Assembly: GCF_033100095.1 (NCBI RefSeq)
Contig: NZ_CP136921.1
Coordinates: 1,086,501-1,150,500, forward strand
Source: Diaphorobacter limosus
Lineage (GTDB): Bacteria; Pseudomonadota; Gammaproteobacteria; Burkholderiales; Burkholderiaceae_C
Direction of reading: 5' to 3'
DNA length: 64,000 nt
This document shows positions 8,269 through 64,000 of this stretch, piece after piece. The translations under genes were made by a program, and so were the position numbers. Under the pieces are notes generated by a model. That model did no database searches, had not been told where the DNA came from, and saw only the letters and a program-made list of their open reading frames with translations. The number at the start of each line of letters is the position of its first letter. Position 1 is the stretch's first letter.

Positions 8269-8312
8269 CCCGGCCTTGCCAGGCCATGGGCTTGCAGCCG
8301 CATGAAATATCA

Positions 8313-20349: not shown

Positions 20350-21480
<1,131 letters not shown>

Positions 21481-21482
21481 TT

Positions 21483-21534
21483 ATTTATAGCTTATAGCGC
21501 TTATACATAAAGCGCTAGAGGCATATTTTACTGA
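21483..21534. repeat. AGCGCTT-type interspersed palindromic repeat, copy 3
   Basis: ATAGCGCTTATACATAAAGC followed by GCTAGAGGCATATTTT is a good example of the family layout. It lies between the 80-residue membrane protein gene and tadA, overlapping the 3' end of the former. Confidence 0.78.
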
Positions 21535-25719: not shown

Positions 25720-25768
25720 TTAGCCTCCGGCGCTTATACAGCAAGCGCTGGAAGCTATGCTTTTGAAA
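25720..25768. repeat. AGCGCTT-type interspersed palindromic repeat, copy 4
   Basis: TTTTTTTAGCCTCCGGCGCT then TATACAGCAAGCGCTGGAAG and a CTATGCTTTT edge. It ends within four bases of the egtB stop and could serve as its terminator. Confidence 0.75.
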
Positions 25769-25772
25769 GCAT

Positions 25773-28236: not shown

Positions 28237-28303
28237 GCCTATGGCATTTTTTGGCCGTAACCCTTTACCATTGGGCGCTGCCAGCTATGTTTTTTGATAA
28301 ACA
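28237..28303. repeat. AGCGCTT-type interspersed palindromic repeat, copy 5 (degenerate)
   Basis: On the minus strand it reads ATCAAAAAACATAGCTGGCA, GCGCCCAATGGTAAAGGG, then GGCCAAAAAATGCC, matching the family edges and left arm. It lies between the TPR gene and egtD. Confidence 0.65.
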
Positions 28304-35676: not shown

Positions 35677-35710
35677 GAATCACTCCACAGATTGAGAAGA
35701 ACGGAATTAT

Positions 35711-35768
35711 GAACAAAAAAGCCCCTGGCGCTTGACAGACAAGCGCCAGGAGCTATTGTTTTCATAGT
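35711..35768. repeat. AGCGCTT-type interspersed palindromic repeat, copy 6
   Basis: AAAAAAGCCCCTGGCGCTTG, ACAGA, CAAGCGCCAGGAGCTATTG and a T-rich edge. The near-perfect 11-bp stem (CCTGGCGCTTG/CAAGCGCCAGG) makes it the best hairpin of the family here. Confidence 0.8.
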
Positions 35769-35834
35769 GTCAAGGTATCAGTTACTCACCGCGCACCGCG
35801 TAACCCGCAGATCCATGAAACTGGCGCGCCCCAA

Positions 35835-35950: not shown

Positions 35951-38900
35951 TTAACCGACCCACTTGCGCGCATTGCGCCAGATGCGCATCCAGGGGCTCA
36001 GAGCGTCCTGCCCACCGGTGGCGGCCAGGTCCGTCCAGCTCATCTGGATGTTGCGAAACGCCCGCTCGGGGTGCGGCATCATGGCCGTGAAGCGGCCGTC
36101 CTGCGTGGTCACGGCGGTCAGGCCGCCGGGGCTGCCGTTGGGGTTGAACGGGTACTGTTCGGTCGCCTGGCCATGGTTGTTGACGAAGCGCATGGCGGGC
36201 AGCACCTTGTCGGCGTTGCCGCGGCGCTCGAAGTTGGCATAGCCCTCGCCGTGCGAGACGACGATGGGCAGGCGGCTGCCGGCCATGCCCTGCAGGAACA
36301 GGCTGGGTGATGCCAGCACCTCGACCATGGACAGGCGCGCCTCGAAGCGGTGGCTCTGGTTGGTGGTAAAGCGCGGCCAGGCCTGGGCGCCGGGGATGAT
36401 GTCGGCCAGCTCGGCAAACATCTGGCAGCCGTTGCACACGCCCAGGGCAAAGGTATCGCCACGGCCAAAGAATTGCTGGAACTGCTCGGACAAGGCCGGG
36501 TTGAAGGTGATGGAACGCGCCCAGCCAATGCCCGCGCCCAGCGTGTCGCCGTAGCTAAACCCCCCGCAGGCGACCACGCCGGCAAAGTCTGAGAGGCGTG
36601 CGCGGCCGGCCTGCAGGTCGGTCATGTGCACGTCGAAGGCCTCGAAGCCGGCCTCGGTGAAGGCGTAGGCCATCTCCACATGCGAGTTCACGCCCTGCTC
36701 GCGCAGCACGGCCACCTTGGGGCGCGCCAGGTTCACAAAGGGCGCGGCCACGTCGTCCAGCGGGTCGAAGGTCAGCTGCACATGCAGGCCGGGGTTGGAC
36801 GGATCGCCCATGGCGGCATGTTCGCTGTCGGCGCAGGCCGGGTTGTCGCGCTGCTGGCAGATCTTCCAGCTGACGGAGTCCCAGACCTGGTGCAGGTCGG
36901 ACAGGCTGGCGCCAAACACCTTTTTGGCGTCGCGCCAGACCTGCAGCTCGCCCTTGCCGGCATCGACCGGCGAGGCCACCGGGCGCGTCTTGCCAATGGT
37001 GTGGCTGCACTGGATCAGGCCATGCTCGCGCAGGGTCTGCATCACGGCGCTGCGATCGGCGGTGCGGATCTGCAGCACCACGCCCAGCTCCTCGTTGAAT
37101 AGCGCGGCGAGCGTCTGGGCCTCGCGCCGGCCGCTGACCTGCTGGCCCCAGTTCTTGCCCTCGCCGCTGTCCATGCGGCTGTCGCTGATGCCATCGCCCT
37201 CGGTGATGAGCATGTCCACGTTCAGCGCCACGCCCAGCTGGCCGGCAAAGGCCATCTCGGCCACCGTGGCCAGCAGGCCGCCGTCGCCCTTGTCGTGGTA
37301 GGCCAGGATCTTTCCTTCAGCCCGCAGCGCGTTCACGGCGTTCACCAGGGCGATCAGGTCCTTGGCGTCGTCCAGGTCCGGCGTTTCATTGCCCGACTGG
37401 CCCAGCACCTGGCCCAGGATGGAGCCGCCCATGCGGTTTTTGCCGCGGCCCAGGTCGATCAGCACCAGGGTGCTGTCTTCTTCGCGGGCGTCGAGCTGCG
37501 GCGTGAGCGTGCCGCGCACGTCCGCCAGCGTGGCGAAGGCGGTGATGATCAGGCTGACGGGCGAGGTGACCTTCTTCGTCTGCCCGCCCTCCTGCCACTG
37601 CGTGCGCATGGACAAGCTGTCCTTGCCCACGGGAATCGAGATGCCAAGCTGCGGGCACAGCTCCATGCCCACGGCCTTGACGGTGGCGTACAGGTCGGCG
37701 TCCTCGCCCGGTTCGCCGCAGGCCGCCATCCAGTTGGCCGACAGCTTCACGCGCGGCAGTTCGATGGGCGCGGCCAGCAGGTTGGTGATGGCCTCGGCGA
37801 CGGCCATGCGGCCCGAGGCCGGGGCGTTGATCACGGCCAGCGGCGTGCGCTCGCCCATGGCCATGGCCTCGCCGGCAAAGCCCTTGTAATCGGCCAGGGT
37901 TACGGCCACGTCGGCCACGGGCACCTGCCAGGGGCCAACCATCTGGTCGCGGTGCGTCAGGCCGCCCACGGCGCGGTCGCCAATGTTGATGAGGAAGCGC
38001 TTGGAGGCCACCGTGGGGTGGGCCAGCACGTCGATGACGGCCTTCTCCAGCGCCAGGCCGTCGAGCTGAATGGGTGCAAAGCTGCGCTGCACGGTTTGCA
38101 CGTCGCGGTGCATCTTGGGCGGCTTGCCCAGCAGCACGTCCATGGGCATGTCCACGGCAAGTTGTGCGTGGGGCGTGGAGCGTTCGGCGTGGTGCAGGTC
38201 GATGTCACCGACGAGCAGCTGACGCTCATCCGTGGCGACGCCGACGACGGCGAAGGGGCAGCGCTCGCGCTCGCAGAACGCTGTGAACTGCGCCAGCGAC
38301 TCGGGGGCGATGGCCAGCACGTAGCGCTCCTGGCTCTCGTTGGACCAGATCTCCTTGGGCGCCAGGCCCGATTCTTCGAGCGGCACGGCACGCAGGTCGA
38401 AGCGCGCGCCGCGGCCGGCGTCGTTGGTCAGCTCGGGGAAGGCGTTGGACAGGCCCCCCGCGCCCACGTCGTGGATGGCCAGGATGGGGTTGTCTGCCCC
38501 TTGCGCCCAGCAGTGGTTGATGACCTCCTGTGCGCGGCGCTCGATCTCGGGGTTGCCGCGCTGCACCGAGTCAAAGTCCAGCTCAGCCGCATTCGTGCCC
38601 GTGGCCATGGAGCTGGCCGCGCCGCCACCCATGCCGATGCGCATGCCCGGGCCGCCGAGCTGTATCAACAGCGTGCCGGCGGGGAACAGGATCTTCTTCG
38701 TGTGCTGCGCGTCTATGGTGCCCAGGCCGCCGGCGATCATGATCGGCTTGTGGTAGCCGCGCGTGACGCCCCCCACCTGCTGCTCGTATTCGCGGAAGTA
38801 GCCGCACAGATTCGGCCGGCCAAACTCGTTGTTGAAGGCCGCGCCGCCCAGCGGACCCTCGGTCATGATCTGCAAGGGGCTGGCGATATGCTCGGGCTTG

Positions 38901-39985
38901 CCAACCTGGCTGCCCCAGAGCTTGGACACGGTGAAGCCCGTCAGGCCGGCCTTGGGCTCGGAGCCGCGGCCGGTGGCGCCCTCGTCGCGGATCTCGCCGC
39001 CCGCGCCGGTCGCAGCACCGGGGAAGGGCGAGATGGCCGTGGGGTGGTTGTGCGTCTCCACCTTCATCAGCACATGGTGGGTGCCACTTCTCTTTTGATA
39101 GCTGGTAGCGCTTGCCTGGCCTGCGAAAGCTTCGAATTTGGCAAAGAACTGCTCGACGGCGCTGCCCTCCATGATGGAGGCGTTGTCGGCATAGGCGACG
39201 ATGGTGTGCTGGGGCGAGACGGCCTCGGTGTGGCGGATCATGCCGAACAGCGATTTGTCCTGTGCCACGCCGTCGATGGTGAACTGGGCGTTGAAGATCT
39301 TGTGCCGGCAATGCTCGCTGTTGGCCTGGGCGAACATCATCAGCTCCACGTCAGTGGGGTTGCGCGCAAGGCCCTTGAAGGCATTGACCAGATAGTCGAT
39401 CTCGTCATCGGCCAGCGCCAGGCCCCAGGCCTTGTTGGCGGCTTCCAGGGCGGCGCGGCCTCCGCCCAGCACGTCGACGAAGGCCATGGGCTCGGCGTCG
39501 AGCTCGGTGAACAGCTCTTGTGCCTCGGCGCGCGTGGCGACGACCGACTCGGTCATGCGGTCGTGTAGCAGCGCGGCGACCTGCTGCAGCTGCTCTGGCG
39601 TCAGCTCGGGCCTGCCGCCCAGCAACCCGCCCTTGAGGCTGATGCGGTATTCGGTGATGCGCTCCACGCGGCGCAGCTGCAGGCCGCAGTTGTGCGCGAT
39701 GTCGGTCGCCTTGGAGGCCCAGGGCGAGACCGTGCCCAGGCGCGGCGTGACCAGCAGCGCCAGGCCGTCGGCCGGGCCGGCGTAGGGGTCGCCGTAGTTC
39801 AAGAGCGCGGCCAGGCGCTCGCGCTCGGCCTCGGACGGTGCGGCATCCCGCGCCACCAGATGCACATGGCGCGCCGCCAGGCCTTCGATCTTGGGGTGGA
39901 TGGCCTGCAGCTGGGGCAGCAGTTGCTGGGCGCGGAAGGAGCTGAGGGCATTGCCGCCCTCCAGCTGGGTGATGTGCAAGGTCAC
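35951..39985 (-). CDS. purL: phosphoribosylformylglycinamidine synthase
   Basis: PurL converts FGAR, glutamine and ATP to FGAM in purine synthesis. The 1344-residue single-chain (large) form is slightly longer than that of E. coli. Visible landmarks are the ATP/substrate region [43 protein letters not shown], and the C-terminal glutaminase with nucleophile in [21 protein letters not shown] and MPHPERAF. Just before the ETHNHPT motif, near residues 285-300, the chain [13 protein letters not shown] is encoded by DNA resembling the intergenic palindrome family. It diverges from map. Confidence 0.96.
39086..39132. repeat. AGCGCTT-type repeat inside purL (in frame)
   Basis: The plus strand reads TTTTGATAGCTGGTAGCGCT, then TGCCTGGCCTGCGAAAGCTT and a TTTGG edge. 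The left half matches the intergenic consensus closely; the right half has decayed. It encodes SATSYQ on the minus strand without disturbing the frame. Confidence 0.6.
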
Positions 39986-41035: not shown

Positions 41036-43660
41036 ATGCCATCACGCCCGAGCCCGGACACCGCGCCGCTGCAGGCGCTGCAAGCGCTACGCGATGGCTA
41101 CCGCCAGGACAAGGCCGCCCTGCTGGACAAGCTGCAGGCGGCCGGAGCCTCCACGCGCGGCATTCGCAAGCTGCTGCTGAAGCTGTCGCACCTGACCGAC
41201 CGGCTGCTGTGCCGGCTGTGGGCGGGCGCGCGCTTGCCGCAGGACTGGGCGCTGCTGGCGGTGGGCGGCTACGGGCGCGCGCAGCTGTTTCCGCATTCAG
41301 ACGTGGACGTGCTGCTGCTGCTGCCCGATGGCACGGCCGCGGCGCTCGATGACGCGCGCAAACCCATCGAGGCCTTCATCAGCAGCTGCTGGGACGCAGG
41401 CCTGGAGATAGGCTCCAGCGTGCGCAGCGTGGCCGAATGCCTGAGCGAGTCCGCCGCCGATGTGACGGTGCAGACGGCCCTGCTCGAGTCGCGCCTGCTG
41501 TGCGGCAGCCCGGCATTGTTCGACGAATTTTGCCGGCGCTACGACGCCCAGATGGACGCGCGCGCCTTTCTGCAGGCCAAGACGCTGGAGATGCGCCAGC
41601 GCCACACCAAGTACGAGGACACGCCCTACGCGCTGGAGCCCAACTGCAAGGAATCGCCCGGCGGCCTGCGCGACCTGCAGCTCATCATCTGGGCGGCAAA
41701 CGCCGCGGGGCTGGGCAGCAGCTGGCGCGAGCTGGCGGCCAACGGCCTGGCCACGCCCTTCGAGCTGCGGCAGATCGAGCGCAACGAGGCCCTGCTGCTG
41801 CTGATCCGCGCCCGCCTGCACGCCATTGCCGGGCGGCGCGAGGACCGCCTGGTGTTCGATCTGCAGACCGCCGTGGCCGAGAGCTTTGGCTACCGCTCCA
41901 CCGCCCCCGACGGCCAGCGCCTGGCCATGCGCGCCAGCGAGACGCTGATGCGCCGCTACTACTGGGCGGCCAAGGCCGTCACGCAGCTCAGCCAGATCCT
42001 GCTGTTGGGCATAGAGGAGCGGCTCAACCCCAGCACGCATGAGCTGCGCCCCATCAACGCGCGTTTTTTTGACAAGGCCGGCCTGATCGAGGTGGCCAGC
42101 GACGACCTGTACGAGCGCCACCCGCACGCCATCCTGGAGACCTTTTTGCTCTACCAGAGCTCGCCGGCGCTCAAGGACCTGTCGGCGCGCACCCTGCGCG
42201 CGCTGTACAACGCGCGCGGCCTGATGGACGCCGGTTTTCGGCGCGACCCGGCCAACCGCGCGCAGTTCATGGAGATACTGCGCCAGCCCTCGGGCATCAC
42301 GCACGCCATGCGGCTGATGAACCAGACCTCGGTGCTGGGGCGCTACCTCTGGCCCTTCAGGCGCATCGTCGGCCAGATGCAGCACGACCTGTTCCATGTC
42401 TACACGGTGGATCAGCACATCCTCATGGTGTTGCGCAACATGCGCCGCTTCTTTATGGCCGAACATGCGCACGAATACCCGTTCTGCTCGCAACTGGCCA
42501 GCGGCTGGGACAAGCCCTGGGTGCTGTACCTCGCGGCGCTGTTCCACGACATCGGCAAGGGCCGCGGCGGCAACCACTCGCAGATCGGCGCGCAGGAGGT
42601 GCGGCGCTTTTGCCGCCAGCATGGCATCGACGCGGCCGACGCGCAGCTGGCCGAATTTTTGGTGCGTGAGCATCTGTTGATGAGCCAGGTGGCGCAGAAG
42701 CAGGACCTGTCCGACCCCGACGTGATCCGCGCCTTTGCCCAGCATGTGGGCAACGAGCGCCAGCTCACGGCGCTGTATCTGCTCACGGTGGCCGACATAC
42801 GTGGCACCTCGCCCAAGGTCTGGAACGCCTGGAAGGGCAAGCTGCTCGAAGACCTGTACCGCTCCACGCTGCGCGTGCTGGGCGGGCGCGCGCCCGACCC
42901 GGCCGCCGAGATCGAGGCACGCAAGCGCGAGGCGCTGATCCTGCTGGCCCTGAGCGCCCTGCCGCACGAGGCCCACAAGCGGCTGTGGGACACGCTGGAC
43001 GTGAGCTACTTCATGCGCCACGAGGCGCCCGACATCGCCTGGCACACGCGCCACCTCTCGCGCCATGTGGGCGCTGCCCGGGCCATCGTGCGCGCCCGGC
43101 TGTCGCTGGCCGGCGAGGGGCTGGAGGTGCTGGTCTACGCGCCCGACCAGGCCGACCTGTTCGCCCGTATCTGCGGCTACTTCGACCGCGCGGGTTTTTC
43201 CATCCTGGACGCGCGCGTGCACACCGCGCACAACGGCCATGCGCTGGACACCTTCCAGGTCGTCGCCACCAGCCAGCCCGGCGCCTACCGCGAACTCATC
43301 CACATGGTCGAGAACGGCCTACAGCGCGCCATCGAGGACCGGGGCGCGCTGCCCGAGCCCGCGCGCAAGCGCGTGTCGCGCCGGGTCAGGAGCTTTCCGA
43401 TCGCGCCGCGCGTCACGCTGCGCCCCGACGAAAAGGCCCAGCGCTGGCTGCTCAGCATCTCGGCGAGCGACCGCGCCGGCCTGCTGTACCTGGTGGCACG
43501 CGTGCTCTCGCGCCACTCTTTAAGCGTGCAGCTGGCCAAGATCAGCACCCTGGGCGAGCGCGTGGAAGACACCTTCCTGCTGCAGGGCGCAGAACTGCAA
43601 AGCAACCAGCAGCAGATCCGCATCGAGACGGAGCTGCTGCAGGCCTTGGCCGATCAATAG
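41036..43660 (+). CDS. glnD: [protein-PII] uridylyltransferase / uridylyl-removing enzyme
   Basis: GlnD senses glutamine and adds or removes UMP on PII proteins, setting nitrogen metabolism. The 874-residue chain has the full order: nucleotidyltransferase with [20 protein letters not shown] (about 76-95), a helical linker ([19 protein letters not shown]), the HD hydrolase with [18 protein letters not shown] (about 500-520), and two C-terminal ACT domains ([20 protein letters not shown] and [20 protein letters not shown]). It lies downstream of map in the same direction. A palindromic repeat follows the stop. Confidence 0.96.
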
Positions 43661-43665
43661 CTATG

Positions 43666-43718
43666 CTATTTATAGCTGTTTGCACTTGCCAGATAAGCGC
43701 TAGAGGCTTGTTTTATAT
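43666..43718. repeat. AGCGCTT-type interspersed palindromic repeat, copy 7
   Basis: CTATTTATAGCTGTTTGCAC, TTGCCAGATAAGCGCTAGAG and GCTTGTTTTATATT. It lies between the convergent glnD and NCS2 permease genes and may terminate both. Confidence 0.78.
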
Positions 43719-43746
43719 TAAATCGCCATAGCCCTGGCTGCGCCTG

Positions 43747-46591: not shown

Positions 46592-46642
46592 AATTCAAGG
46601 CCTTGCAATTGCACAAGGCCAGCCAATAAAAACACCGAACAT

Positions 46643-53412: not shown

Positions 53413-54759
53413 TTACAGCAGCCGACGCTGGACCACGGTGAGATCCAGCTCGCCCTCGGCCAGCCGGGCATGCACGGCCTCGCCCGGGCGCACCTGGGCG
53501 GGCCGCATCACGGGCTGGCCCTGGGCGTCGGTCAGCAGGGCGTAGCCGCGCCGCAGCACCAGCTGCGGGTTGAGCAGCGAAAGCCGCAGGGCGGCGCGCT
53601 CCAGGCGTTCACGGCGCTGCACCAGGCTGCGTTGCATGATTTGCGGCAAATGGGCCTGCAGCGCTTTACCAGACTGCGCGAGGCGCTGCGTTTTTAGTAG
53701 TGCGGCGTGGCGCATGCGCTGGGCCAGGCCGGACAGGCGCAGCTGCTGGCGGGCGACCAGGCCGGAAGGCCGACCCAGGCGTTGGGCTGCCTGATCCAGC
53801 CGCTGGTGGCGCAGGTCGATCTGGCGCTGCACGCCGTCCTGCAGCCGCCCGGCCAGCAGGTCGAGCGCCCCCAGCCAGACGGCGCGCGGCTGGCTCACCA
53901 GCTCGGCCGCGGCCGTCGGCGTGGGTGCGCGCAGGTCGGCGCAGAAGTCGGCGATGGTGAAATCGGTCTCATGCCCCACGCCGCTGACCAGCGGCACGGG
54001 GCTCTGCACGATGGTGCGGGCCAGGCGCTCGTCGTTGAAGGCCCACAAATCCTCGATGGAACCACCGCCGCGTACGAGCAGGATGACGTCGATAAACGGC
54101 ATCTCGGAATTTTTAGGCAAATCAGCCTCTGACGCCCGTCCCTTCTGCGCAAGCAGATACAGTTTTGATAGTGCATCCACGATGGACGCCGGTGCCTGCG
54201 CGCCCTGCACCAGGGCCGGCACCAGCACCACCGGGATATGCGGCACGCGCCGACGCAGGGCCGTCACCACGTCGTGCAGGGCGGCGGCGCCCGGCGATGT
54301 GACCAGGCCTATGCCGCGCGGCATGGCCGGCAGCGGCCGCTTGCGCGCGGCAGTGAACAGCCCCTCGGCCTCCAGCTGCGCCTTCAGGCGCAGAAACTGC
54401 TCGAACAGCGCACCCTGCCCCGCGCGGCGCATGCCTTCCACGATGAGCTGCAGGTCACCGCGCGCCTCGTACACGCCGAGCTGGCCGCGCACCTCGACCA
54501 GCTCGCCATCACGCGGCATGAAGTCCAGCCCGCTGGCGGCACGGCGGAACATGGCGCAGCGGATCTGACCTTGGCCGTCTTTCAGCGTGAAGTAACAATG
54601 CCCGCTGGAGGCGCGCGAAAAGCCCGTGATCTCGCCGCGCACCGCTACCGGGTTGAAGCGAGCCTGCAGCGCATCAGCAATGGCGCGGCATAGCGCGCCA
54701 ACTTCCCAGATACGCGGCGCCAGGCCTGCATCGGGCCGCTCAAACATAGGCTGCACCAT
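53413..54759 (-). CDS. xseA: exodeoxyribonuclease VII large subunit
   Basis: XseA with XseB degrades single-stranded DNA. The 448-residue protein has the N-terminal OB fold ([38 protein letters not shown]), the catalytic core ([69 protein letters not shown]) and a C-terminal coiled coil. Two stretches, about residues 198-217 and 354-372, are encoded by DNA resembling the interspersed palindrome family. I chose ATG 54759; 54747 is an alternative. Confidence 0.93.
53643..53697. repeat. AGCGCTT-type repeat inside xseA (coiled-coil region)
   Basis: On the coding strand: CTACTAAAAACGCAGCGCCT, CGCGCAGTCTGGTAAAGCGC, TGCAGGCCCATTTGCC. The right arm (AAAGCGCTGCAGGCCCATTT) matches the intergenic copies well. 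It stays in frame and encodes [16 protein letters not shown]. Confidence 0.6.
54108..54166. repeat. AGCGCTT-type repeat inside xseA (before GGGSIEDLW)
   Basis: On the coding strand: CACTATCAAAACTGTATCTG, CTTGCGCAGAAGGGACGGGC, GTCAGAGGCTGATTTGCC. Edges and arms align with the intergenic form. It encodes [17 protein letters not shown], a segment that looks like an insertion between conserved XseA blocks. Confidence 0.68.
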
Positions 54760-55101
54760 GCCTGCGAGGGTGGCCCAGCCGGCCACTAGTCCACAGTTCG
54801 CCGCAGGCGACACCTGGCGCCGGAAGTTCGCAAGTACTGCGCCACAGGCCATGCAAGTACGTGCAAGCCATTGATTTACAACAATTTTTCAATGCGTGAT
54901 TTTTCATCAATCTAGCCAAAGCATGTATTGGCGCCGTCTGGCGTGCTTTGTGCACGCGGTTTCCCACAAAGTTATCCACAGAAACTGTGGGGCAAGCGGA
55001 GGACGGGGCATGGATGGTACGGTGACGCACTGGCCGCGTTGGGCGTGGTTGCGGGCTGCGCCATAATCCCCGCTGCTTTTTATTGTGAGCGGAGTTAAGA
55101 A
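54760..55101. other. intergenic region between divergent xseA and exbB, with DnaA box
   Basis: A perfect DnaA box TTATCCACA is at 54972-54980. A promoter for exbB is likely: TTGGGC at 55039-55044, 17-base spacer, CATAAT at 55062-55067. GGAG at about 55091 is the exbB ribosome site. Nothing else was recognised. Confidence 0.6.
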
Positions 55102-55734
55102 TTGCTGTCGATCATACAAGCCGCCGGCTGGCCCATCTGGCCCCTGATTGCCTGCTCCATCTTGGCGCTGGCGCTGGTTTTCGAGCGCTTCGTGGCGCTG
55201 AAGACGGCCCGCGTCGTCCCGCCGAAGCTGCTGGACGAGGCGATCTCGGTGTCGTCCAAATCCGTGCCGGGGCCCGACGTGGTGACCCAGCTGGCACAGA
55301 ACTCGGCCCTGGGTGAGGTGCTGGCCAGCGGCCTGCGCACCCTGAACAGCCACCCGCAGAGCAGCGAGGCCGAGCTGCGCGCAGCCATGGAGGGCGCCGG
55401 CCGCACGGTGGCGCACCGGCTGGAGAAATACCTGACGGCCCTGGCGACGATTGCCTCGGCCGCGCCGCTGCTGGGCCTGCTGGGCACGGTGATCGGCATG
55501 ATCGAGATCTTTGGCTCGCAGGCCGGCGGTGGCGCGGTGGGCGGCGGCAACCCGGCGCAGCTGGCGCATGGCATTTCCATCGCGCTGTACAACACGGCCT
55601 TCGGCCTGATCGTGGCCATTCCCACGCTGATCTTCTGGCGCTATTTCAGAAGCCGCGTGGACGAGTACCTGCTGACGCTGGAGCTGGCCGCCGAGCAGTT
55701 CGTGCGCCACCTTGGGCGCCTGCGCAAGCCATGA
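55102..55734 (+). CDS. exbB: MotA/TolQ/ExbB proton-channel family protein
   Basis: A 210-residue inner-membrane protein that, with ExbD, uses the proton gradient to energise outer-membrane transport. Three helices are visible: the N-terminal PIWPLIACSILALALVFERF, then ATIASAAPLLGLLGTVIGMIEIF (the family signature) and ISIALYNTAFGLIVAIPTLIFW. The start is a TTG with GGAG seven bases upstream. It overlaps exbD by four bases. The order exbB-exbD-lpxK-ycaR-kdsB is a conserved betaproteobacterial envelope cluster. No tonB is adjacent. Confidence 0.92.
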   Translation: MLSIIQAAGWPIWPLIACSILALALVFERFVALKTARVVPPKLLDEAISVSSKSVPGPDVVTQLAQNSALGEVLASGLRTLNSHPQSSEAELRAAMEGAGRTVAHRLEKYLTALATIASAAPLLGLLGTVIGMIEIFGSQAGGGAVGGGNPAQLAHGISIALYNTAFGLIVAIPTLIFWRYFRSRVDEYLLTLELAAEQFVRHLGRLRKP

Positions 55735-56156
55735 ACTTCAGACCCCGCCAGAAGGAAGAACCGGAGATCAACCTGATCCCGTTCATCGACGTGCTGCTGG
55801 TGATCCTCATCTTTTTGATGCTGTCCACCACCTACAGCAAGTTCACCGAGCTGCAGCTGACCCTGCCCGTGGCCGACGCCGAACAGCTGCGCGACCACCC
55901 CAAGGAGGTCATCGTGGCCGTAGCCGCCGACGGACGCTATGCCATCAACAAGACCCCGCTGGAAGGCAAGCATGTCGAGCAGGTGGCGCGCGCGCTGTCC
56001 GAGGCCTCCACCGCCGGGCCCAAAAGCGTGGTCATCATCAGCGCCGATGCCGCCGCGCCGCACCAGTCCGTGGTCACGGTGATGGAGGCCGCGCGCCGCG
56101 TGGGCCTGTCGCAGATCACCTTTGCCACCCAATCGTCGGCGCAGGCCGGCCGCTGA
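55731..56156 (+). CDS. exbD: ExbD/TolR-family protein
   Basis: A 141-residue protein with one N-terminal membrane helix and a periplasmic domain. The key motif INLIPFIDVLLVILIFLML contains the proton-path Asp. The periplasmic part has VVIISADAAAPHQSVVTVMEAARRVGL. It is translationally coupled to exbB (ATGA overlap) and followed after four bases by lpxK. Confidence 0.93.
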   Translation: MNFRPRQKEEPEINLIPFIDVLLVILIFLMLSTTYSKFTELQLTLPVADAEQLRDHPKEVIVAVAADGRYAINKTPLEGKHVEQVARALSEASTAGPKSVVIISADAAAPHQSVVTVMEAARRVGLSQITFATQSSAQAGR

Positions 56157-56160
56157 TCGC

Positions 56161-57156
56161 ATGAGCGCCGCCGCGCGGCTACGCCAGGCCTGGCAGCAGC
56201 GCGGCCCGCTGGCGCTGCTGCTGTGGCCACTGACCCTGCCCTACCGGCTGCTGACGGCGCTGCGCCGCGCGCTCTACCGCACGGGCCTGCTGAAACAGCA
56301 CCGCCTGCCGGTGCCGGTCATCGTGGTCGGCAACGTCATCGTCGGCGGCGCCGGCAAGACCCCCGTCACCCTGGCCCTGCTGCAACATCTGCGTGCCGCG
56401 GGCTGGCGCCCGGGCGTCATCTCGCGCGGCTATGGCCGTCAAACCATCAGCTGCCGCCCGGCCCTGCCGACGAGCAGCGCCGCCGAGGTGGGAGACGAGC
56501 CGCTGCTGATCGCCCGCAGCGCCGGCGTGCCGGTGTACGTGGCGCGCCGCCGCGCCGATGCCGGTCGGGCGCTGCTGGCGGCCCACCCCGAGGTCAACAT
56601 CCTCGTCTGCGACGACGGCCTGCAGCACCTGCAACTGGCACGCGACGTGGAGGTCTGCGTCTTCAACGACGAGGGCATTGGCAACGGCTGGCTGCTGCCC
56701 GCCGGCCCGCTGCGTGAACCCTGGCCGCGCGCCGTCGATCTGGTGCTGCACGCCGGCGCGGCGCCCGGCGGATCGGCGCCGCAGTTCCCGCTATCGCGCC
56801 GCCTCGCCGACCATGCCGTGGACGCCAAGGGCCGCCAACTGCCGCTGGCGCAGCTGCGCGGCTTGAAACTGCACGCCCTGGCCGCCATTGCCCGCCCGCA
56901 AGACTTTTTTGCCATGCTGCGGGCCCAGGGCCTGCCGCCCGCGACCGAAGAGGCGCTGCCAGATCACTATGATTTTTCTAGCTGGAAGCGCCCTTCAGAT
57001 AAGCGCTTGATACCGATTTGTACCGAAAAAGACGCCGTCAAGCTCTGGCCCGCCCACCCCGGCGCCCTGGCCGTGCCCCTGCGCCTCGATATACCGGCGG
57101 CCTTCTTCGCCGCGCTGGACGCACGCCTGGCCTCGCTATCATCGCCCCGCCATTGA
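56161..57156 (+). CDS. lpxK: tetraacyldisaccharide 4'-kinase
   Basis: LpxK phosphorylates the lipid A precursor disaccharide at the inner membrane. The 331-residue protein has an amphipathic N-terminus, Walker [19 protein letters not shown] (about 57-74), the catalytic region [31 protein letters not shown] and [16 protein letters not shown], and the base-binding [11 protein letters not shown]. Between about 270 and 285 the sequence [14 protein letters not shown] is encoded by a copy of the interspersed palindrome. It sits in the exbD-lpxK-ycaR-kdsB-adk cluster. Confidence 0.94.
56970..57016. repeat. AGCGCTT-type repeat inside lpxK (in frame)
   Basis: ATTTTTCTAGCTGGAAGCGC, CCTTCAGATAAGCGCTTGAT, ACCGATTTG: edges, both arms and the AGATAAGCGCTTG side match the intergenic copies closely. 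It encodes [15 protein letters not shown] between conserved LpxK blocks. Confidence 0.75.
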
Positions 57157-57164
57157 GGAACACC

Positions 57165-57347
57165 ATGGACCCGAAACTGCTTGAACTGCTGGTCTGCCCC
57201 GTCACCAAGGGCCCGCTGACCTATGACCGAGAACACCAGGAGCTGATTTCGCGCAGCGCGCGCCTGGCCTACCCCGTGCGCGACGGCATTCCCGTGCTGC
57301 TGGAGAACGAGGCCCGCACGCTCACCGACGAGGAGCTGGAGCGGTGA
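57165..57347 (+). CDS. ycaR: YcaR/Trm112-like small protein
   Basis: A 60-residue protein of the Trm112/YcaR family, often encoded between lpxK and kdsB. It has [17 protein letters not shown] at the N-terminus and [20 protein letters not shown] in the middle. Only one of the paired cysteines of zinc-binding Trm112 members is present, as in YcaR. The ATG at 57165 follows GAGGAA. Its end overlaps the kdsB start. Confidence 0.9.
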
Positions 57348-58132
57348 GCACCGCCGCCGCGCCCTTCACGGTGCTGATCCCGGCGCGCCTGGCCTCCACG
57401 CGCCTGCCGAACAAGCCGCTGGCCGACATCGCCGGCCTGCCCATGGTCGTGCATGTGGCGCGCCGCGCCGCGCAAAGCGCCGCCCTGCGTTGCGTGGTGG
57501 CGGCCGACGATGGTCGCATCGTCGATGCTTGCCGCCTGCACGGCGTCGAGGCCCTGCTGACCCGCGCCGACCACGCCAGTGGCAGCGACCGCCTGGCCGA
57601 AGCCTGCGAGCAACTGAGCCTGGCCGGAGACGACATCGTCGTCAACGTGCAGGGCGACGAGCCACTGATCGACCCGCAGCTCATCGACGCCGTGGCCGCG
57701 CTGCTGCACCAGCGCGCCGACGCCAGCATGGGCACGGCCGCCCATGCCATCGCCAGCGCCGCCGACTTTGCCAACCCCAACGTGGTCAAGGTGGTGCTGG
57801 ACGCACATGGCCTGGCGCACTACTTCAGCCGTGCGCCGATCCCCCATGCGCGCGACCACGCCGCCGGGAGCTGCTGGTGGCAGCCCGGCCAGGGCGGCCC
57901 GGCCGGCTTTGCGCCGCTGCGCCACATCGGCATCTACAGCTACCGCGCCGGTTTTCTGCGCGGCTTTCCGCAGCTGCCACCCGCACCCACCGAGCAGCTG
58001 GAGGCGCTGGAGCAGCTGCGCGCGCTCTGGCACGGCCACCGCATCGCCGTGCATGTGACGGCCAGCGAGCCGGGCGCCGGCGTGGACACCCCCACCGACC
58101 TGGAACGCGTGCGCGCCCTGCTGGCGGGGTAG
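57344..58132 (+). CDS. kdsB: 3-deoxy-manno-octulosonate cytidylyltransferase
   Basis: KdsB activates Kdo as CMP-Kdo for lipopolysaccharide assembly. The 262-residue enzyme shows [22 protein letters not shown], the substrate loop [15 protein letters not shown], the metal-site [12 protein letters not shown], and the late [12 protein letters not shown] and [19 protein letters not shown]. It begins with GTG overlapping the ycaR stop (GTGA), showing coupling. adk follows after 111 bases. Confidence 0.95.
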
Positions 58133-58900
<768 letters not shown>

Positions 58901-58918
58901 TCCTGCCTCGGCACCACC

Positions 58919-58942
58919 AACGCCCCGCAACGCGGGGCGTTG
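58919..58942. terminator. terminator between adk and asparaginase
   Basis: A GC-rich perfect stem AACGCCCCGC / GCGGGGCGTT followed by GTGCTTTTC lies between the convergent genes. The T run after the stem favours the plus strand (adk). Confidence 0.75.
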
Positions 58943-58955
58943 TGCTTTTCGGGCC

Positions 58956-59906
58956 TCACGCCCCCTGCATCAACTCCAGCAGCAGACTCACGCGCGCCTT
59001 CACGGGGCTCAGGCCCCCAGCGTCCTGCCACGGCGCATCGTGCAGATCCAGCATGCGCCCCTGCGGGCAGCGCGAGGCCACGCGCACCTGAACACCCGCG
59101 GCCACGGCACGCTCCAGGGCCCGCTCCAGCGCCTGGTGCAAGGTGCCGTTGCCAGTCGCCGCAACCACGATGCCCCGGGCGCCGCCCTGCACCAGCCAAT
59201 CGACCAGCGCACCATCGCTGCCCGCATGGCTGAGAATGATTTCCACGCGCGGCCAGGGGCTGCGGCCCAGCGCGGGCAGCAGTCCGGCATGCCGGGGCGC
59301 GGCCGGCTGCGGCGCCCGGCCATGGGCCCAGCGCAAGCGGCCATCCTCCACCCAGCCCAGGGGCCCGGTGTCGCCGGAGTCGAACGCATCCAGCCGCAGC
59401 GGGTGCACCTTGGCCACCTCGCGCGCGCCATGCACCACACCGGCGGCCACCATCAGCACGCCATGCGCCGTGGGCTCGGTCGCCAGGGCCACGGCATCCA
59501 GCAGGTTCTGCGGCCCGTCCGGCGCCAGCGCCGTGGCCGGGCGCATGGCGCAGGTCAGCACCACGGGCCTGGTGGCATCCAGCAGGTTCGCCAGCAGCCA
59601 GGCCGTCTCTTCCAGCGTGTCCGTGCCATGGGTGATGACGATGCCGGCCACCAAGGGATCGGCCAGGTGCAGCGCGCAGCGCTGCGCCAGCCGCGCCCAG
59701 ACCTCATAACCCATGTCCTTGCTGTCGATCTGCGCAATTTGCTCGGCCACCAGGCTGGCGCCGGCCGCGCGCGCAAGGGCGGGAATGGCGGACAGCAACT
59801 GCTCCACCCCGATCTGCCCGGCCGTGTAGCCCACATTGGCCCCAGCCATATCGGACTTACCGGCAATCGTGCCCCCGGTGCCCAGCACCACGACTTTTCT
59901 TTCCAT
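58956..59906 (-). CDS. L-asparaginase (cytoplasmic type)
   Basis: A 316-residue asparaginase/glutaminase-family enzyme. Both catalytic threonine motifs are present: VLGTGGTIAGK at the N-terminus and ITHGTDTLEETAW near residue 93. There is no signal peptide, so it probably acts in the cytoplasm on asparagine. It is convergent with adk and divergent from lexA with 91 bases between the starts, so its promoter shares space with the LexA boxes. Confidence 0.92.
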   Translation of the reverse strand: MERKVVVLGTGGTIAGKSDMAGANVGYTAGQIGVEQLLSAIPALARAAGASLVAEQIAQIDSKDMGYEVWARLAQRCALHLADPLVAGIVITHGTDTLEETAWLLANLLDATRPVVLTCAMRPATALAPDGPQNLLDAVALATEPTAHGVLMVAAGVVHGAREVAKVHPLRLDAFDSGDTGPLGWVEDGRLRWAHGRAPQPAAPRHAGLLPALGRSPWPRVEIILSHAGSDGALVDWLVQGGARGIVVAATGNGTLHQALERALERAVAAGVQVRVASRCPQGRMLDLHDAPWQDAGGLSPVKARVSLLLELMQGA

Positions 59907-59929
59907 ACCCGCTTGCGCCTTTTCAAAAA

Positions 59930-59945
59930 CTGTTCAAAAATACAG
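59930..59945 (+). promoter_or_regulatory. LexA box 1
   Basis: CTGTTCAAAAATACAG is a perfect CTGT-N8-ACAG operator, 52 bases before the lexA start, indicating autoregulation. It also lies 24 bases upstream of the divergent asparaginase start. Confidence 0.92.
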
Positions 59946-59948
59946 CCA

Positions 59949-59964
59949 CTGGATTAAACAACAG
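59949..59964 (+). promoter_or_regulatory. LexA box 2
   Basis: CTGGATTAAACAACAG is CTGG-N8-ACAG, one mismatch from the consensus, centred 19 bases after box 1, so two dimers could bind on nearly the same helix face. Confidence 0.82.
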
Positions 59965-59997
59965 TAACCCTCCAACCGCCAGCACCGGACTCACCAC

Positions 59998-60672
59998 ATG
60001 CTCGACAGCCCCAAGCTCACCGCCCGCCAGCAGCAGATTCTGGACTTGATCCAGACCGCCATCGCGCGCACCGGCGCGCCGCCCACGCGTGCCGAAATCG
60101 CGGCCGAGCTCGGTTTCAAGTCCGCCAACGCGGCCGAAGAGCACCTGCAGGCCCTGGCGCGCAAGGGTGTGATCGAGCTGGTCAGCGGCACCTCGCGCGG
60201 CATACGGCTGTGCGGCGAGACCGTGCGCCACATCAACGCGGTGCGCGGCACCCAGTTCAGCCTGCCGATTCCCGGCCTGTCCCAGCTCACCTTGCCGCTC
60301 ATAGGCCGCGTCGCGGCGGGTTCGCCCATTCTGGCGCAGGAGCATGTGGATCAAACCTATACGGTGGAGGGCAACCTGTTCGCGCACAAGCCCGACTACC
60401 TGCTCAAGGTGCGCGGCATGTCCATGCGCGACGCCGGCATCATGGACGGCGACCTGCTGGCCGTGCAGGCCACACGCGAGGCGCGCAGCGGCCAGATCAT
60501 CGTCGCGCGCCTGGGTGACGACGTCACCGTCAAGCGCCTGCGTCGCACCGGCCGCGCCATCGAGCTGCTGCCCGAGAACCCCGACTATCCCGTCATCCGC
60601 GTCGAGCCCGGCGAGCCCTTCGAGATTGAGGGCCTGGCCGTGGGCCTGATCCGCAACACTATGCTGATGTAG
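59998..60672 (+). CDS. lexA: SOS repressor LexA
   Basis: LexA represses SOS genes and self-cleaves when RecA is activated. The 224-residue protein has the winged-helix DNA-binding domain ([41 protein letters not shown]), the cleavage site Ala107-Gly108 in [10 protein letters not shown], the catalytic Ser142 in [11 protein letters not shown] and Lys179 in DVTVKRLRR. Two LexA boxes precede it. Confidence 0.97.
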
Positions 60673-60817
60673 GCATGGCCGGCGCCGCCGCAGGTGGCGG
60701 GCGTTTGGACTGCGGGCCATGCTGTTGGCCTGCAGCCAACCCTGCAGGTGCGCGTCTTTTTCTTGGCAATCCTGCCTGTGTTTCACTTTCATGCCATTGG
60801 CATCAAGGAGTCTTCAC

Positions 60818-61153
60818 ATGGTTCACATGGGATTCGCCCTGCGCGCGCTGTCGTCCATTTCCAGCCTGTGCAACCCGCTGCTGCGCAGCCATTCATGGCA
60901 CAAGCCCGCGCCAGACAGCCAGCCGCAGTTGCACGCTGCACCATCCGTGCATGCCAGCCACACCACCCCGGGCGCCGAGCGCCGCTGCGCGGCCGCAGCG
61001 CAAGCGGCTCCTGCCGCCGCGCCACGCCCGACGGCTTCCACCCGCCCGCTGCGCGTGATCCTGCGCCAGCAGGACGACGGCGCCTGCCGCCTGCTGATCT
61101 CCGGGCGTATGGCGGATGTCTGCGCCGAACTCGATCGCCTGGCGCTGCACTGA
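60818..61153 (+). CDS. small unknown protein downstream of lexA
   Basis: A 111-residue soluble protein that I do not recognise. It begins MVHMGFALRALSSISSLCNP, has an Ala/Pro-rich low-complexity middle, and ends in a folded-looking LRVILRQQDDGACRLLISGR followed by MADVCAELDRLALH. Expression is supported by AAGGAG eight bases before the ATG at 60818, which is why I rejected the longer frame from 60719. It follows lexA in the same direction after 145 bases without a terminator, so it may be read as part of the SOS transcript (inference). Confidence 0.65.
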   Translation: MVHMGFALRALSSISSLCNPLLRSHSWHKPAPDSQPQLHAAPSVHASHTTPGAERRCAAAAQAAPAAAPRPTASTRPLRVILRQQDDGACRLLISGRMADVCAELDRLALH

Positions 61154-61245
61154 TGTCCGCCACGGGCGCGCAACCGGCGGCACGGATGCAATTTAAGTAA
61201 TTGCTAATACACTGCATCTCTCTTTCCTCAAGACGGAGTACTGCA

Positions 61246-61791
61246 ATGAAAAACTACCTACTGGCCCTGGTTCTGGGCCTGGCAGCCCTGGGCGCGCAGG
61301 CGGTGGAGATGGAAATTTCCGCCAAGGAGGTCTACGAAAAGGTGCAGGGCAACGACCCCGGCGTACTTTTTGTCGATGTGCGCGACCCGCTGGAAATCAT
61401 GTTCACCGGCTTCACCGACGTGGTGCATGTGAACATTCCCTATCTGCTGGCCGATCGCACCCGTTGGGAGGACGAGCGCAGCATCTACCGCCTCTACCGC
61501 AACCCCGATTTTGTGGCCCAGATCAAGGCCGAGCTGGCGCGCCGCGGCATGAAAGAGGATGCCGAGGTCATCACCCTGTGCCGCTCGGGCAGCGAGCGTG
61601 GCAAGCCCAGCGCCCAATTCCTGCGCGATAACGGCCTGCCCAATGCACGCTATGTCGTCAACGGCTTCCAGGGCAGCCCGGTCAAGGACGGCCCCCAGGC
61701 CGGGCTGCGCATCGTCAACGGCTGGCAAAACAGCGGCCTGCCCTGGAGCGCCAAGATGACCCCGGGCAAGATGTTCCGCGTGGATAAGTAG
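61246..61791 (+). CDS. exported rhodanese-like protein
   Basis: A 181-residue periplasmic protein with a signal peptide (LLALVLGLAALGAQA) and one rhodanese domain. VLFVDVRDPLEIMFTGFTDV is the N-terminal part; the active-site loop LCRSGSERGKPSA supplies Cys112. Rhodanese domains carry persulfide sulfur; the partner here is unknown. GGAG lies eight bases before the ATG. The gene ends at an interspersed palindrome. Confidence 0.9.
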   Translation: MKNYLLALVLGLAALGAQAVEMEISAKEVYEKVQGNDPGVLFVDVRDPLEIMFTGFTDVVHVNIPYLLADRTRWEDERSIYRLYRNPDFVAQIKAELARRGMKEDAEVITLCRSGSERGKPSAQFLRDNGLPNARYVVNGFQGSPVKDGPQAGLRIVNGWQNSGLPWSAKMTPGKMFRVDK

Positions 61792-61796
61792 CGGTT

Positions 61797-61848
61797 TTTG
61801 GCGATGGCGCGCACCAATAAAGCGCTAAAAGCTATCATTTTTGATAGT
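61797..61848. repeat. AGCGCTT-type interspersed palindromic repeat, copy 8
   Basis: TTGGCGATGGCGCGCACC, AATAAAGCGCTAAAAGCTAT, CATTTTTGATAG. It fills the gap between the convergent rhodanese and hrpA genes. Confidence 0.72.
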
Positions 61849-64000
61849 TCATCGCTGCAACTGCGCCCACAGCTTGTCCAGGCGCTTGGTACTCACCGGG
61901 TACGGCGTGCGCAGTTCCTGGGCGAAGAAGCTCACGCGCAGCTCTTCGAGCATCCAGCGATATTCCTGCATGCGCGCGTCCTGCTGGCCCTTGCGCTCTG
62001 CGACCAGGCGCCAGTAGCGCTGCTCCAGGGGCTGCAGCTCCTGTAGCTTGGCGGCGTCACGCGCCGGGTCAGCACGCAGCTTGTCCAGGCGCGTGGTAAT
62101 GGCTTTCAGGTAGCGCGCGTAATGCTGCAGCTGCACCCAGGGCGCGGCGGCCACAAACCCCTTGGGCATCAGTTTTTGTAGCTGGTTGCCCGTGTCAGTC
62201 GTGGCCTGTGGCGCATTTTTTGTATCCTTGATCTTGCGTTGAGCGCTGGCGTATTCGGCCAGAATCACCGCCGCCATGCGCGCCACTTCATTGGCGATCA
62301 GGGTCAGGCGGCCACGGCCTTCCTGCACGCGCTGGGCAAATTGGGCCGCGTCCGTGGGCAGGGGCTCCTGCAGAAAGGCCCGATCCATGGCCACGTCGAT
62401 GATTTGCCCGCGCAGCTCCTCCTGCGTGCCCAGCGGCATATAAGCCACGGCCATTTTTTGCAGATCCGGAATGTTCTTTTCCAGGTATTTCAGCGCGTCC
62501 TTGATCTGCAGCGCGCACAGGCGGCGCAGGCCCAGGTGGTGTTTGGCCGCAGCCAGTTCGGGCTCGTCAAAAACCTCGATGGTCACGGCGTCGCCCTGGT
62601 CGATCAGCGCCGGGAAGCCGATCAGCGTATGGCCGCCTTTTTTCAGCTCCATCAGCTCGGGCAGCTCGCCAAAGCTCCAGGCTGTATAGCGCGCCTCTGC
62701 CTGGGTTTTCGCTCCCTCTCCCTTTGGGAGAGGGCTGGGGTGAGGGCTGCTGGCAACAGGCGCTGCGCCGGCCTTGCCCTCACCCTGCCCTCTCCCAGGG
62801 GGAGAGGGTAAAGACGCGGCCGCCGCCGGGGTGGCCGCAAGCTTCAACTCCGCCAGCGCCTGGAACGCCCCACGCGCCTTGCCGCCCCATTCGGCTTTCA
62901 GCGCGCCCAGGTTGCGGCTTTGCCCCAGCTGGCGGCCATGCTCGTCGGTCACGCGCAGGTTCATGAACAGGTGCGCGCTGAGCATGTCGAGCTTGAAGTC
63001 GGCGCGCTTGATGTCGAGCGAGGTTTCATCGCGCGCCTGCTTGAGCAGCACGTCGATCAACCCGCCCTGCTGCCAGCGCTCGCCCTGCAAGAACAGCTGC
63101 GCCAGGCGCTCGGCGTGTTCAGGCAGCGGCACAAAGCGGCTGCGCGGGCGCTGTGGCAGGCTTTTCAAAAGCGCCTGAATCTTGTCCTTGAGCATGCCCG
63201 GCACCAGCCATTCGGCGCGTTCCTCACTCACCTGATTGAGCACGAACAGCGGCACGGTCACGGTGAGACCATCGCGCGCGTCGCCCGGGCTGTGCAGGTA
63301 GCTGGCAGAGCAGTCCACGCCGCCGAGCTTGACGGTCTTGGGGAATTTATCGGTGGTGATGCCCGCGGCCTCGTGGCGCATGAGCTCGTCTTTAGAGAGG
63401 CGCAGCAGCTCGGGCTGGCCCTTGCTGACGGCGCGAAACCACTTGTCAAAGGTGGCGCCGCTGTAAATGCCCTCGGGAATGGCCTGGTCGTAGAAGGCGT
63501 AGATCAACTCGTCGTCCACCAGCACGTCCTGGCGCCGGCTCTTGTGCTCCAGCTCTTCGACCTTGCGCACCGTCTTGTGATTCGCGGCCAGGAAGGGCCA
63601 GGGGCTGTCCCACTCGCCCTCGACCAGCGCGCGGCGGATGAACATCTGCCGCGCCTCGATCGGGTCGATGCGGCCATAACTCACGCCGCGCTGGTTATAG
63701 ACCACCAGGCCATAGAGCGTGGCGCGCTCGTAGGCCACCACGTCGGCCTGCTTCTTGCTCCAATGCGGGTCGAGCAGCTGCTTCCTCAGCAAATGGCCGC
63801 CCACCTCTTCCAGCCACTGCGGCTCGATGGCGGCAATGCCCCGGCCGTAGAGGCGCGAGGTCTCCACCTGCTCGGCGGCGACGATCCAGCGCCCGGGCTT
63901 CTTCGACAAATGCGCGCCCGGATGCGGGTGGAACTTGATGCCATGCGCGCCCAGGTAGGCCTCGCTCTCCTCGCCCTTGAAACCGATGTTGCCGAGCAGG
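61849..64000 (-). CDS. hrpA: ATP-dependent RNA helicase HrpA, C-terminal part (5' end outside window)
   Basis: The frame is open to the window edge, so about 717 C-terminal residues of a normally ~1300-residue DEAH-box helicase are seen. Present are the end of the helicase-associated region (LLGNIGFKGEESEAYLGAHG, KFHPHPGAHL) and the long C-terminal DUF3418-like domain (QVETSRLYGRGIAAIEPQWL, VSYGRIDPIEARQMFIRRAL, GFPALIDQGDAVTIEVFD). Two stretches are repeat-encoded: SLPSPPGRGQGEGKAG...SPHPSPLPKGEG in the middle and NAPQATTDTGNQLQ nearer the end. The ATPase motifs lie outside the window. Confidence 0.92.
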   Translation of the reverse strand, partial: LLGNIGFKGEESEAYLGAHGIKFHPHPGAHLSKKPGRWIVAAEQVETSRLYGRGIAAIEPQWLEEVGGHLLRKQLLDPHWSKKQADVVAYERATLYGLVVYNQRGVSYGRIDPIEARQMFIRRALVEGEWDSPWPFLAANHKTVRKVEELEHKSRRQDVLVDDELIYAFYDQAIPEGIYSGATFDKWFRAVSKGQPELLRLSKDELMRHEAAGITTDKFPKTVKLGGVDCSASYLHSPGDARDGLTVTVPLFVLNQVSEERAEWLVPGMLKDKIQALLKSLPQRPRSRFVPLPEHAERLAQLFLQGERWQQGGLIDVLLKQARDETSLDIKRADFKLDMLSAHLFMNLRVTDEHGRQLGQSRNLGALKAEWGGKARGAFQALAELKLAATPAAAASLPSPPGRGQGEGKAGAAPVASSPHPSPLPKGEGAKTQAEARYTAWSFGELPELMELKKGGHTLIGFPALIDQGDAVTIEVFDEPELAAAKHHLGLRRLCALQIKDALKYLEKNIPDLQKMAVAYMPLGTQEELRGQIIDVAMDRAFLQEPLPTDAAQFAQRVQEGRGRLTLIANEVARMAAVILAEYASAQRKIKDTKNAPQATTDTGNQLQKLMPKGFVAAAPWVQLQHYARYLKAITTRLDKLRADPARDAAKLQELQPLEQRYWRLVAERKGQQDARMQEYRWMLEELRVSFFAQELRTPYPVSTKRLDKLWAQLQR
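62171..62223. repeat. AGCGCTT-type repeat inside hrpA (in frame)
   Basis: TTTTTGTAGCTGGTTGCCCG, TGTCAGTCGTGGCCTGTGGC, GCATTTTTTG align base for base with the intergenic layout (GTAGCTG, loop GTCAGTC, GGC, T-run). It encodes KNAPQATTDTGNQLQK. Confidence 0.7.
62711..62813. repeat. CCCTCTCCC/GGGAGAGGG palindromic repeat inside hrpA (in frame)
   Basis: Two hairpins, CCCTCTCCCTTTGGGAGAGG and CCCTCTCCCAGGGGGAGAGG, with GGGGTGAGGGC and GCCCTCACCC between them, form one inverted-repeat unit. The same motifs make up the palindrome at 25295-25560. It is translated as SLPSPPGRGQGEG and SPHPSPLPKGEG. Confidence 0.8.

Follow-up and report, generated by a model that had tools for sequence, protein, structure and literature searches.

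The genome of Diaphorobacter limosus carries a dispersed family of palindromic repeats whose copies lie between genes and, in frame, inside genes, and we describe it here from a 64,000-nucleotide stretch (contig NZ_CP136921.1, positions 1,086,501 to 1,150,500 of the forward strand; hereafter the window, with positions counted from its first letter) in which purL, lpxK and xseA harbor copies. At the coding sites for which we could compare host proteins with homologues, the repeat never lengthens the protein by a full copy. Our reading, tentatively held at a probability of about 45%, is that this is a copying repeat resembling the repetitive extragenic palindromic (REP) sequences and that, within genes, it arises by in-place replacement of existing code rather than by insertion.

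The repeat family and its copies in the window

Thirty aligned copies define an imperfect palindrome of about 66 to 74 bp, longer than the 50 bp given by the original prediction, which a model made from the sequence of the window. Read 5' to 3', it consists of an AT-rich left edge, TAGCTG, three nucleotides, GCGCTT, seven nucleotides, AAGCGC, approximately TAGAGGC, and an AT-rich right edge, with a conserved dyad core of TAGCTG-n3-GCGCTT-n7-AAGCGC-n3-GGC and, by hand count, G or C at 26 of the 74 consensus letters. We surveyed the window together with 40 evenly spaced 20-kb stretches, amounting to 864 kb of the 4.10-Mb single-contig genome. A position-weight scan of this sample yields 144 distinct copies with scores above 8, and a profile hidden Markov model (HMM) trained on 99 of them recovers 142 copies at E of 0.1 or less, with none in the reversed sequence; extrapolation from the 142 gives about 670 copies genome-wide, roughly 190 of them predicted to be coding. 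Matching the palindrome pattern with up to three mismatches over both strands of the entire genome returns 338 matches, a count in which palindromic places may score twice, and the reversed pattern returns none. Copies are balanced between strands in an unbiased scan of the 40 stretches and the window, in which a chromosomal strand bias suspected earlier is gone.

A separate test profile was built from 66 intergenic copies, none of them taken from the window and each sharing at most 20 bp with a called gene. It detects 12 copies in the window, of which 8 are intergenic or at gene ends and 4 lie in open frames, while its best match in the reversed window has an E value of 2.9. These copies, none of which matches Rfam up to E 0.5, and their host genes are as follows.

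5418..5477, plus strand: repeat copy between convergent genes, overlapping the 3' end of the gene that ends at 5435 (E 4.2e-11; position-weight score 71.0)
8306..8372, minus strand: intergenic repeat copy, 3' of the gene that ends at 8268 (E 1.7e-6)
21470..21533, plus strand: repeat copy between two minus-strand genes (E 5.2e-11)
25720..25775, minus strand: repeat copy between convergent genes (E 8.3e-11)
28249..28295, minus strand: weaker intergenic repeat copy (E 2e-4)
35704..35772, minus strand: intergenic repeat copy, also present in the congener G268 by congener comparison (E 1.5e-12)
35951..39985, minus strand: purL, host of a coding copy (open reading frame of 1344 amino acids; matches solved phosphoribosylformylglycinamidine synthases)
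39086..39142, plus strand: repeat copy in purL, a minus-strand gene (E 1e-5)
43656..43721, plus strand: repeat copy between convergent genes, absent from the congeners G268 and G272 (E 4.9e-13)
53413..54786, minus strand: xseA, host of two coding copies (TIGR00237 xseA, E 5.1e-126)
53637..53682, minus strand: repeat copy in the C-terminal part of xseA, the second XseA site (E 5.2e-4)
54107..54173, minus strand: repeat copy in a length-variable loop of xseA, the first XseA site (E 7.5e-6)
56161..57156, plus strand: lpxK, host of a coding copy (matches a solved tetraacyldisaccharide 4'-kinase)
56961..57028, plus strand: repeat copy in lpxK (E 1.6e-7)
61790..61843, minus strand: repeat copy between convergent genes, the match stopping 6 bases short of the hrpA stop end at 61849 (E 1.1e-8)
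62171..62223, minus strand: hrpA segment named in the original prediction, without a significant score in the intergenic-only profile (E 4.9)

The at least eight intergenic copies of the original prediction are thus confirmed by a profile from outside the window, and four of its five coding copies (purL, lpxK and both in xseA) score significantly with a profile of intergenic origin and leave the reading frame intact. Its further statement that gene callers simply absorb such copies agrees with the survey, in which 40 of the 142 copies fall within called genes. The fifth coding copy, in hrpA, does not stand: the segment has no match in the survey HMM and no gap in any of the 9 orthologues found, and the gene, which extends beyond the window, owes its name to a TIGR01967 match below the model cut-off. 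It may be at most a strongly decayed copy, a possibility that follows from the recoding result at hrpA given below.

One could suppose that the whole family is a composition artefact, in which AT-rich patches of a GC-rich genome happen to resemble the repeat, and the called genes scanned do contain 151 patches rich in A or T at third codon positions (AT3-rich). Yet only 39 of these overlap a repeat match, and of the other 112, which form a set of AT3-rich codon patches in the genes of the surveyed 864 kb free of repeat overlap, only five reach the 95th percentile of random windows; the empty searches with reversed sequence and reversed pattern also speak against it. This extremely improbable explanation is refuted for the family as a whole, the hrpA segment excepted, and the dispersed palindromic repeat family is real.

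Protein length at coding copies

The gap test subtracts from the length of the host protein at a site that of a homologue without, or presumed to be without, the repeat. A search for gaps against signal-free homologues has been applied to uptake signals (PMC1626085). The test covers 16 of the 40 internal copies, picked where homologues were at hand: the four of the window, two in the helicase of L034, one each in MutS and a NUDIX gene, two in L063 and six others with solved homologues. Left out of the count are dnaX (a low-complexity linker whose alignment is unreliable), L034:3-2486 (homologues short of the site) and the hrpA segment.

Differences range from -6 to +20 residues, with 7 of the 16 sites at zero or below and 9 at +2 to +20, and the gain expected of a full copy (+22 to +25 residues) occurs at none of them. 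Likewise, a difference of 55 to 85 bp is seen in none of 84 comparisons with tight flanks in which no copy is detected at the other locus, a set that a few sites dominate. The coding copies at the 16 tested sites are without full-length insertion, and the inserted peptide linkers of the original prediction are accordingly not borne out. Nor are its clean insertion boundaries: the length at the lpxK site is unchanged in 33 of the 36 match-free orthologue loci (among 80; of the other three, two lack one residue and one has four extra), and at the second XseA site in 64 of 70 orthologues. The distant solved LpxK 4ehw likewise has the DHYD motif of the LpxK site.

Other sites at or below zero are LpxB and Dxr, each with a gap of 0 to its best solved homologue (one sequence apiece), and the two helicase sites, at -6 and -5 against one relative. 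MutS was compared with 15 genomes without repeat matches: the length is equal in 8, greater in 6 and, in the remaining one, smaller by 5 residues. Five of the 8 equal-length genomes show no trace of repeat similarity at the site; relative to these five, either the code would have been replaced without a change in length, or length would have been lost and then regained.

Among the sites with gains, MurD (+2), ArgF (+3), ThiL (+7), MurI (+12) and PurL (+7, against 1t3t) were compared with solved homologues; PurL shows no length change relative to G268 and G272, both of which share the copy. The NUDIX site is 5 to 9 residues longer than in five genomes, and the second L063 site is 5 or 6 longer than in six genomes and equal to G167. 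The biggest gains, at the first XseA site (+16 or +17 against 17 of 70 orthologues; -6 to +14 against most others) and the first L063 site (compared with five genomes, +17 to +20; with two others, -1 and +7), fall in stretches that vary in length. At the same variable XseA loop, the xseA of L073 has a long in-frame insert that reads like the translation of a second, GC-rich inverted repeat (CCCTCACCCC...CCCTCTCCC), which occurs in the window at 25362-25487 and in the own genome near G000:C1:1221750; judged by its sequence, this insert would represent a different palindrome that did insert.

These measurements bear most directly on the idea that a selfish palindrome inserts in frame, as the Rickettsia elements do, and that neighboring residues are then trimmed until the original length is restored. 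In its favor are two intergenic sites with element-sized gains (see below), the existence of longer coding sites (the first XseA, first L063 and MurI sites), and the use by coding copies of all six frames, the commonest being the antisense frame that is stop-free in the consensus (13 of 40). We consider it unlikely, given the 16 sites with no full gain, seven of them without any, and given that residues encoded by the repeat align with homologous residues of other proteins at LpxK, LpxB, Dxr, MurD and the second L063 site, the first four in solved homologues, which is not expected of insertion.

Coding copies are also less lineage specific than the original prediction had it. One or more of three congeners show a detectable counterpart of each of the four in the window, and the lpxK site has a repeat match in 44 of 80 lpxK loci from many genera, so that for lpxK orthologues outside the group do in part carry the same residues, an outcome under which the original prediction was to fail. 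Across genomes, a match with up to two mismatches is present in 28 of 120 from the family and 4 of 150 from the order (the own genome counted in both); three of the latter four belong to the same family, and the fourth has four identical copies of a different-looking sequence. The repeat family is found in part of the Comamonadaceae. One genome of the family, G164, has 552 repeat matches at up to two mismatches and 20 Y1 transposase matches.

Placement and origin of the copies

Classified with a custom codon-model gene-calling script rather than a standard program, the 142 copies comprise 69 that are intergenic, 33 at gene edges and 40 inside 37 distinct genes, and their density is about 13-fold higher between genes (0.75 per kb) than within them (0.058 per kb). 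The 76 convergent spacers hold 32 copies, the 325 tandem ones 54 and the 103 divergent ones 8, and 35 of the 54 tandem matches start between -8 and +10 nucleotides from the upstream stop codon. In one convergent spacer, a separate GC-rich hairpin, read by eye, follows the repeat in 11 relatives (9 with a detectable repeat), which argues that the repeat is not simply the terminator there. Host genes identified by family searches include mutS, dnaX, murD, the glutamate racemase gene, lpxB, thiL, dxr, argF, rpoN and pbpC, to which the L034 helicase, listed as ATP-dependent helicase/nuclease subunit A, can be added.

Two further arrangements of copies were seen. At least six lie within 3.4 kb at G000:C1:3768437-3771838 (partly L012), a local cluster. 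In L034:3-2486, a single open frame joins a part resembling dienoyl-CoA reductase to an enoyl-CoA hydratase part, with a repeat copy encoding the junction, an arrangement that looks like two genes fused when an intergenic copy came to be read through. Elsewhere in the window, positions 46516-46718 hold a tandem pair of tRNA-Asn (GTT) genes that are 95% identical over 78 bases.

Between genes, the repeat can come or go as a unit. The spacer holding the copy at 43656..43721 measures 86 bp here and 9 and 12 bp in G268 and G272, and a second intergenic site has a spacer of 85 bp with the repeat and 19 bp without it; a third difference (174 versus -8 bp) includes another repeat. These two element-sized indels between congeners indicate that some copying or excision exists and lend partial support to the mobile or copied palindrome of the original prediction; their flanks are too diverged to read a target-site duplication of the kind that marks miniature inverted-repeat transposable elements (MITEs).

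Within genes, the match to the repeat resides in the DNA. When the coding copies in lpxK, xseA (both), purL and mutS, as well as the hrpA segment, were recoded synonymously at random, 0 of 3000 recodings reached the observed profile score in each case, so the peptide sequence does not account for the match. Codons for the same residues have a third-position G+C content of 0.49 inside copies and 0.91 elsewhere in the six genes compared.

Some of the sites resemble the repeat even where relatives lack a match. The homologous stretch belongs to the 1% of gene positions that most resemble the repeat in 27 of 30 match-free orthologues for lpxK, 15 of 19 for the second xseA site and 2 of 7 for mutS (drawn from 36, 21 and 10 loci, respectively, the rest being of unequal length, not given or unaligned). 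Such stretches would fit either a conversion guided by similarity or very old, decayed copies, and MutS in G167, G169 and G246 resembles a decayed ancient copy.

The mechanism that we propose combines these observations. The repeat would multiply by a copying process; between genes, it would be gained or lost as an element-sized unit and would survive where it does least harm, right behind stop codons and between convergent genes. In genes, existing code would be overwritten by the repeat, or converted towards it, with little or no change in length, and selection would retain only versions with a working peptide and frame. We infer that the overwriting is a templated, conversion-like event, helped along where the code happens to resemble the repeat, and that its outcome is sifted by selection acting on the protein. 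The full claim that the repeat spreads into genes by equal-length overwriting, through templated conversion at sites of chance similarity and not by insertion, we regard as rather doubtful. A still bolder form would make a fragment of lpxK the founder of the family: some 70 bp of lpxK, at the codons of the LpxK motif DHYD, run colinear with the repeat.

Several observations weigh against in-place replacement or its components. Of the 40 internal copies, 24 yielded no usable gap test; each solved homologue is one sequence and, like most of the listed relatives, is only presumed to be free of the repeat at the DNA level. At the first helicase site, the own protein is 3 to 4 residues longer than most of the listed close relatives, a comparison of proteins only, against -6 for the one relative given above. 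No conversion event between strains has been caught, and five of seven equal-length MutS outgroups have no pre-existing similarity at the site, so a conversion guided by similarity is not the general rule; an ancient copy, since decayed, could explain the similarity in Variovorax and others equally well. The spacer survey is broad, its 105 one-element differences having a median gain of 45 bp with 31% at or below 20 bp, and spacer length varies widely even without the repeat (3380 orthologous spacer comparisons). That survey is noisy, in part since copies in decay go undetected, and insertion is not proven by it alone. Lastly, where two relatives share an AT-ending codon, the own genome has kept it at 129 of 143 positions inside copies versus 122 of 186 outside, but four copy-free AT-rich patches, the only ones available, retain such codons alike (87 of 104 versus 132 of 162 for copies, leave-one-out), and in lpxK the tendency is reversed (39 of 55 inside the copy, 69 of 86 outside). 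Maintenance of the repeat at the DNA level, for which the AT-ending codons at first seemed strong evidence, thus failed its control and is not established.

The failed control also weighs against the proposal that the repeat is a DNA signal (an uptake sequence or a site for a DNA-organizing protein) that point mutations assemble, driven by selection or by a bias in uptake, as happens with the uptake signal sequences of Haemophilus influenzae. Such a signal would account for the coding sites without gain and for those that are repeat-like in match-free relatives. Moreover, no clear compensatory stem changes occur in 101 copies (one near-invariant and one marginal column pair only), and letters rather than fold therefore seem to be kept. 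We nevertheless judge it improbable, to the same degree as insertion with trimming, these two being the serious rivals of in-place replacement: the core pattern is found in the 864 kb at 5, 18, 22, 26 and 25 places with zero, one, two, three and four mismatches, respectively, and perfect copies are thus fewer than those with one mismatch, opposite to uptake signals (PMC1626085); the motif is long; and element-sized intergenic indels require a copying step.

Relation to known repeats and significance

REPs are palindromes of 20 to 40 bp with a GTAG or CGTC tag, and intragenic REPs are described as inserts (PMC3733652). Our family is like them in its high copy number, its palindromic form, its position in convergent and tandem spacers close behind stop codons and its occasional intragenic copies, including those in DNA repair genes (PMC3733652). 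It differs in its length, in lacking either tag, in not flanking the only Y1 gene found in the genome and in that its tested coding copies add no full unit. That gene is the following.

L152:7569-8270: single Y1 transposase gene, resembling a REP-associated tyrosine transposase (RAYT), with inverted repeats containing GGGGTCAGATTCCAATTAA on its flanks that are unrelated to the main repeat

Mobilization of the repeat as a REP by a RAYT would be suggested by the presence of this gene, by a Y1 gene in 12 of the 13 genomes of the family, the own one among them, that hold 10 or more repeat matches, and by the placement behind genes and in repair genes that REPs share (PMC3733652). We find this explanation very unlikely. 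A Y1 match is also present in 76 of the other 107 family genomes, and none is listed for G244, which has 59 repeat matches. The inverted repeat flanking the own Y1 gene is a different one that contains GGGGTCAG, which fits neighbors of the terminal-inverted-repeat type with GGGGWSAS (PMC3733652), and the sole link to our family is a weak, partial repeat match just behind the gene (E 4.8e-4). The GTAG tag is absent, the base preceding TAG being A in 26 of 30 copies in plus-strand register (a tally in which three minus-strand copies stand unturned).

The palindromic elements of Rickettsia and Wolbachia (RPE and WPE) are likewise palindromic and keep the frame in core genes (PMC3767692). RPEs are given there as inserted sequences of 100 to 150 bp, while the coding copies tested here are largely length neutral and the host is an Alicycliphilus-like betaproteobacterium, whose LpxK protein is 100% identical to that of a metagenome-assembled genome named Alicycliphilus sp. 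Because it has no GTAG tag, no flanking RAYT and no full-length insertion, the repeat lacks defining features of both REPs and Rickettsia elements. Like the uptake signals of the Pasteurellaceae, it has copies in conserved genes, and at some sites these open no insertion gap (7 of the 16 tested, the other 9 being at +2 to +20) or encode residues homologous to those of other proteins, as is seen for uptake signals against signal-free relatives, but theirs is a short, near-exact core (PMC1626085) and ours a long, relaxed consensus with element-sized intergenic indels. The BRE of Bordetella was considered and set aside as a different element. It too is betaproteobacterial (Comamonadaceae included) with some copies in coding sequence, but it measures 75 to 91 bp at full length, averages 69% G+C and reaches at most 29 copies per genome in the table of PMC3110155, sometimes in tandem, and our family is AT-rich and, by extrapolation, far more numerous. 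Within the excerpts available, a paper on natural transformation in Verminephrobacter treats uptake sequences in general and names no repeat, and a Rhodoferax genome paper has CRISPR only and no such repeat; among top-ranked results from the open-access literature, we recognized no description of such a Comamonadaceae repeat by family, uptake role or core letters.

Repeats found within proteins are commonly put down to insertions that the host tolerates. Were replacement the rule here, 20-odd codons in genes like mutS, lpxK, lpxB, murD and dxr could be rewritten by short repeats with no gap appearing in protein alignments, and the usual searches for extra segments would therefore miss such copies. 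The many parallel intergenic and coding cases across related genera mean that counting in a strain collection can separate insertion, conversion and point mutation.

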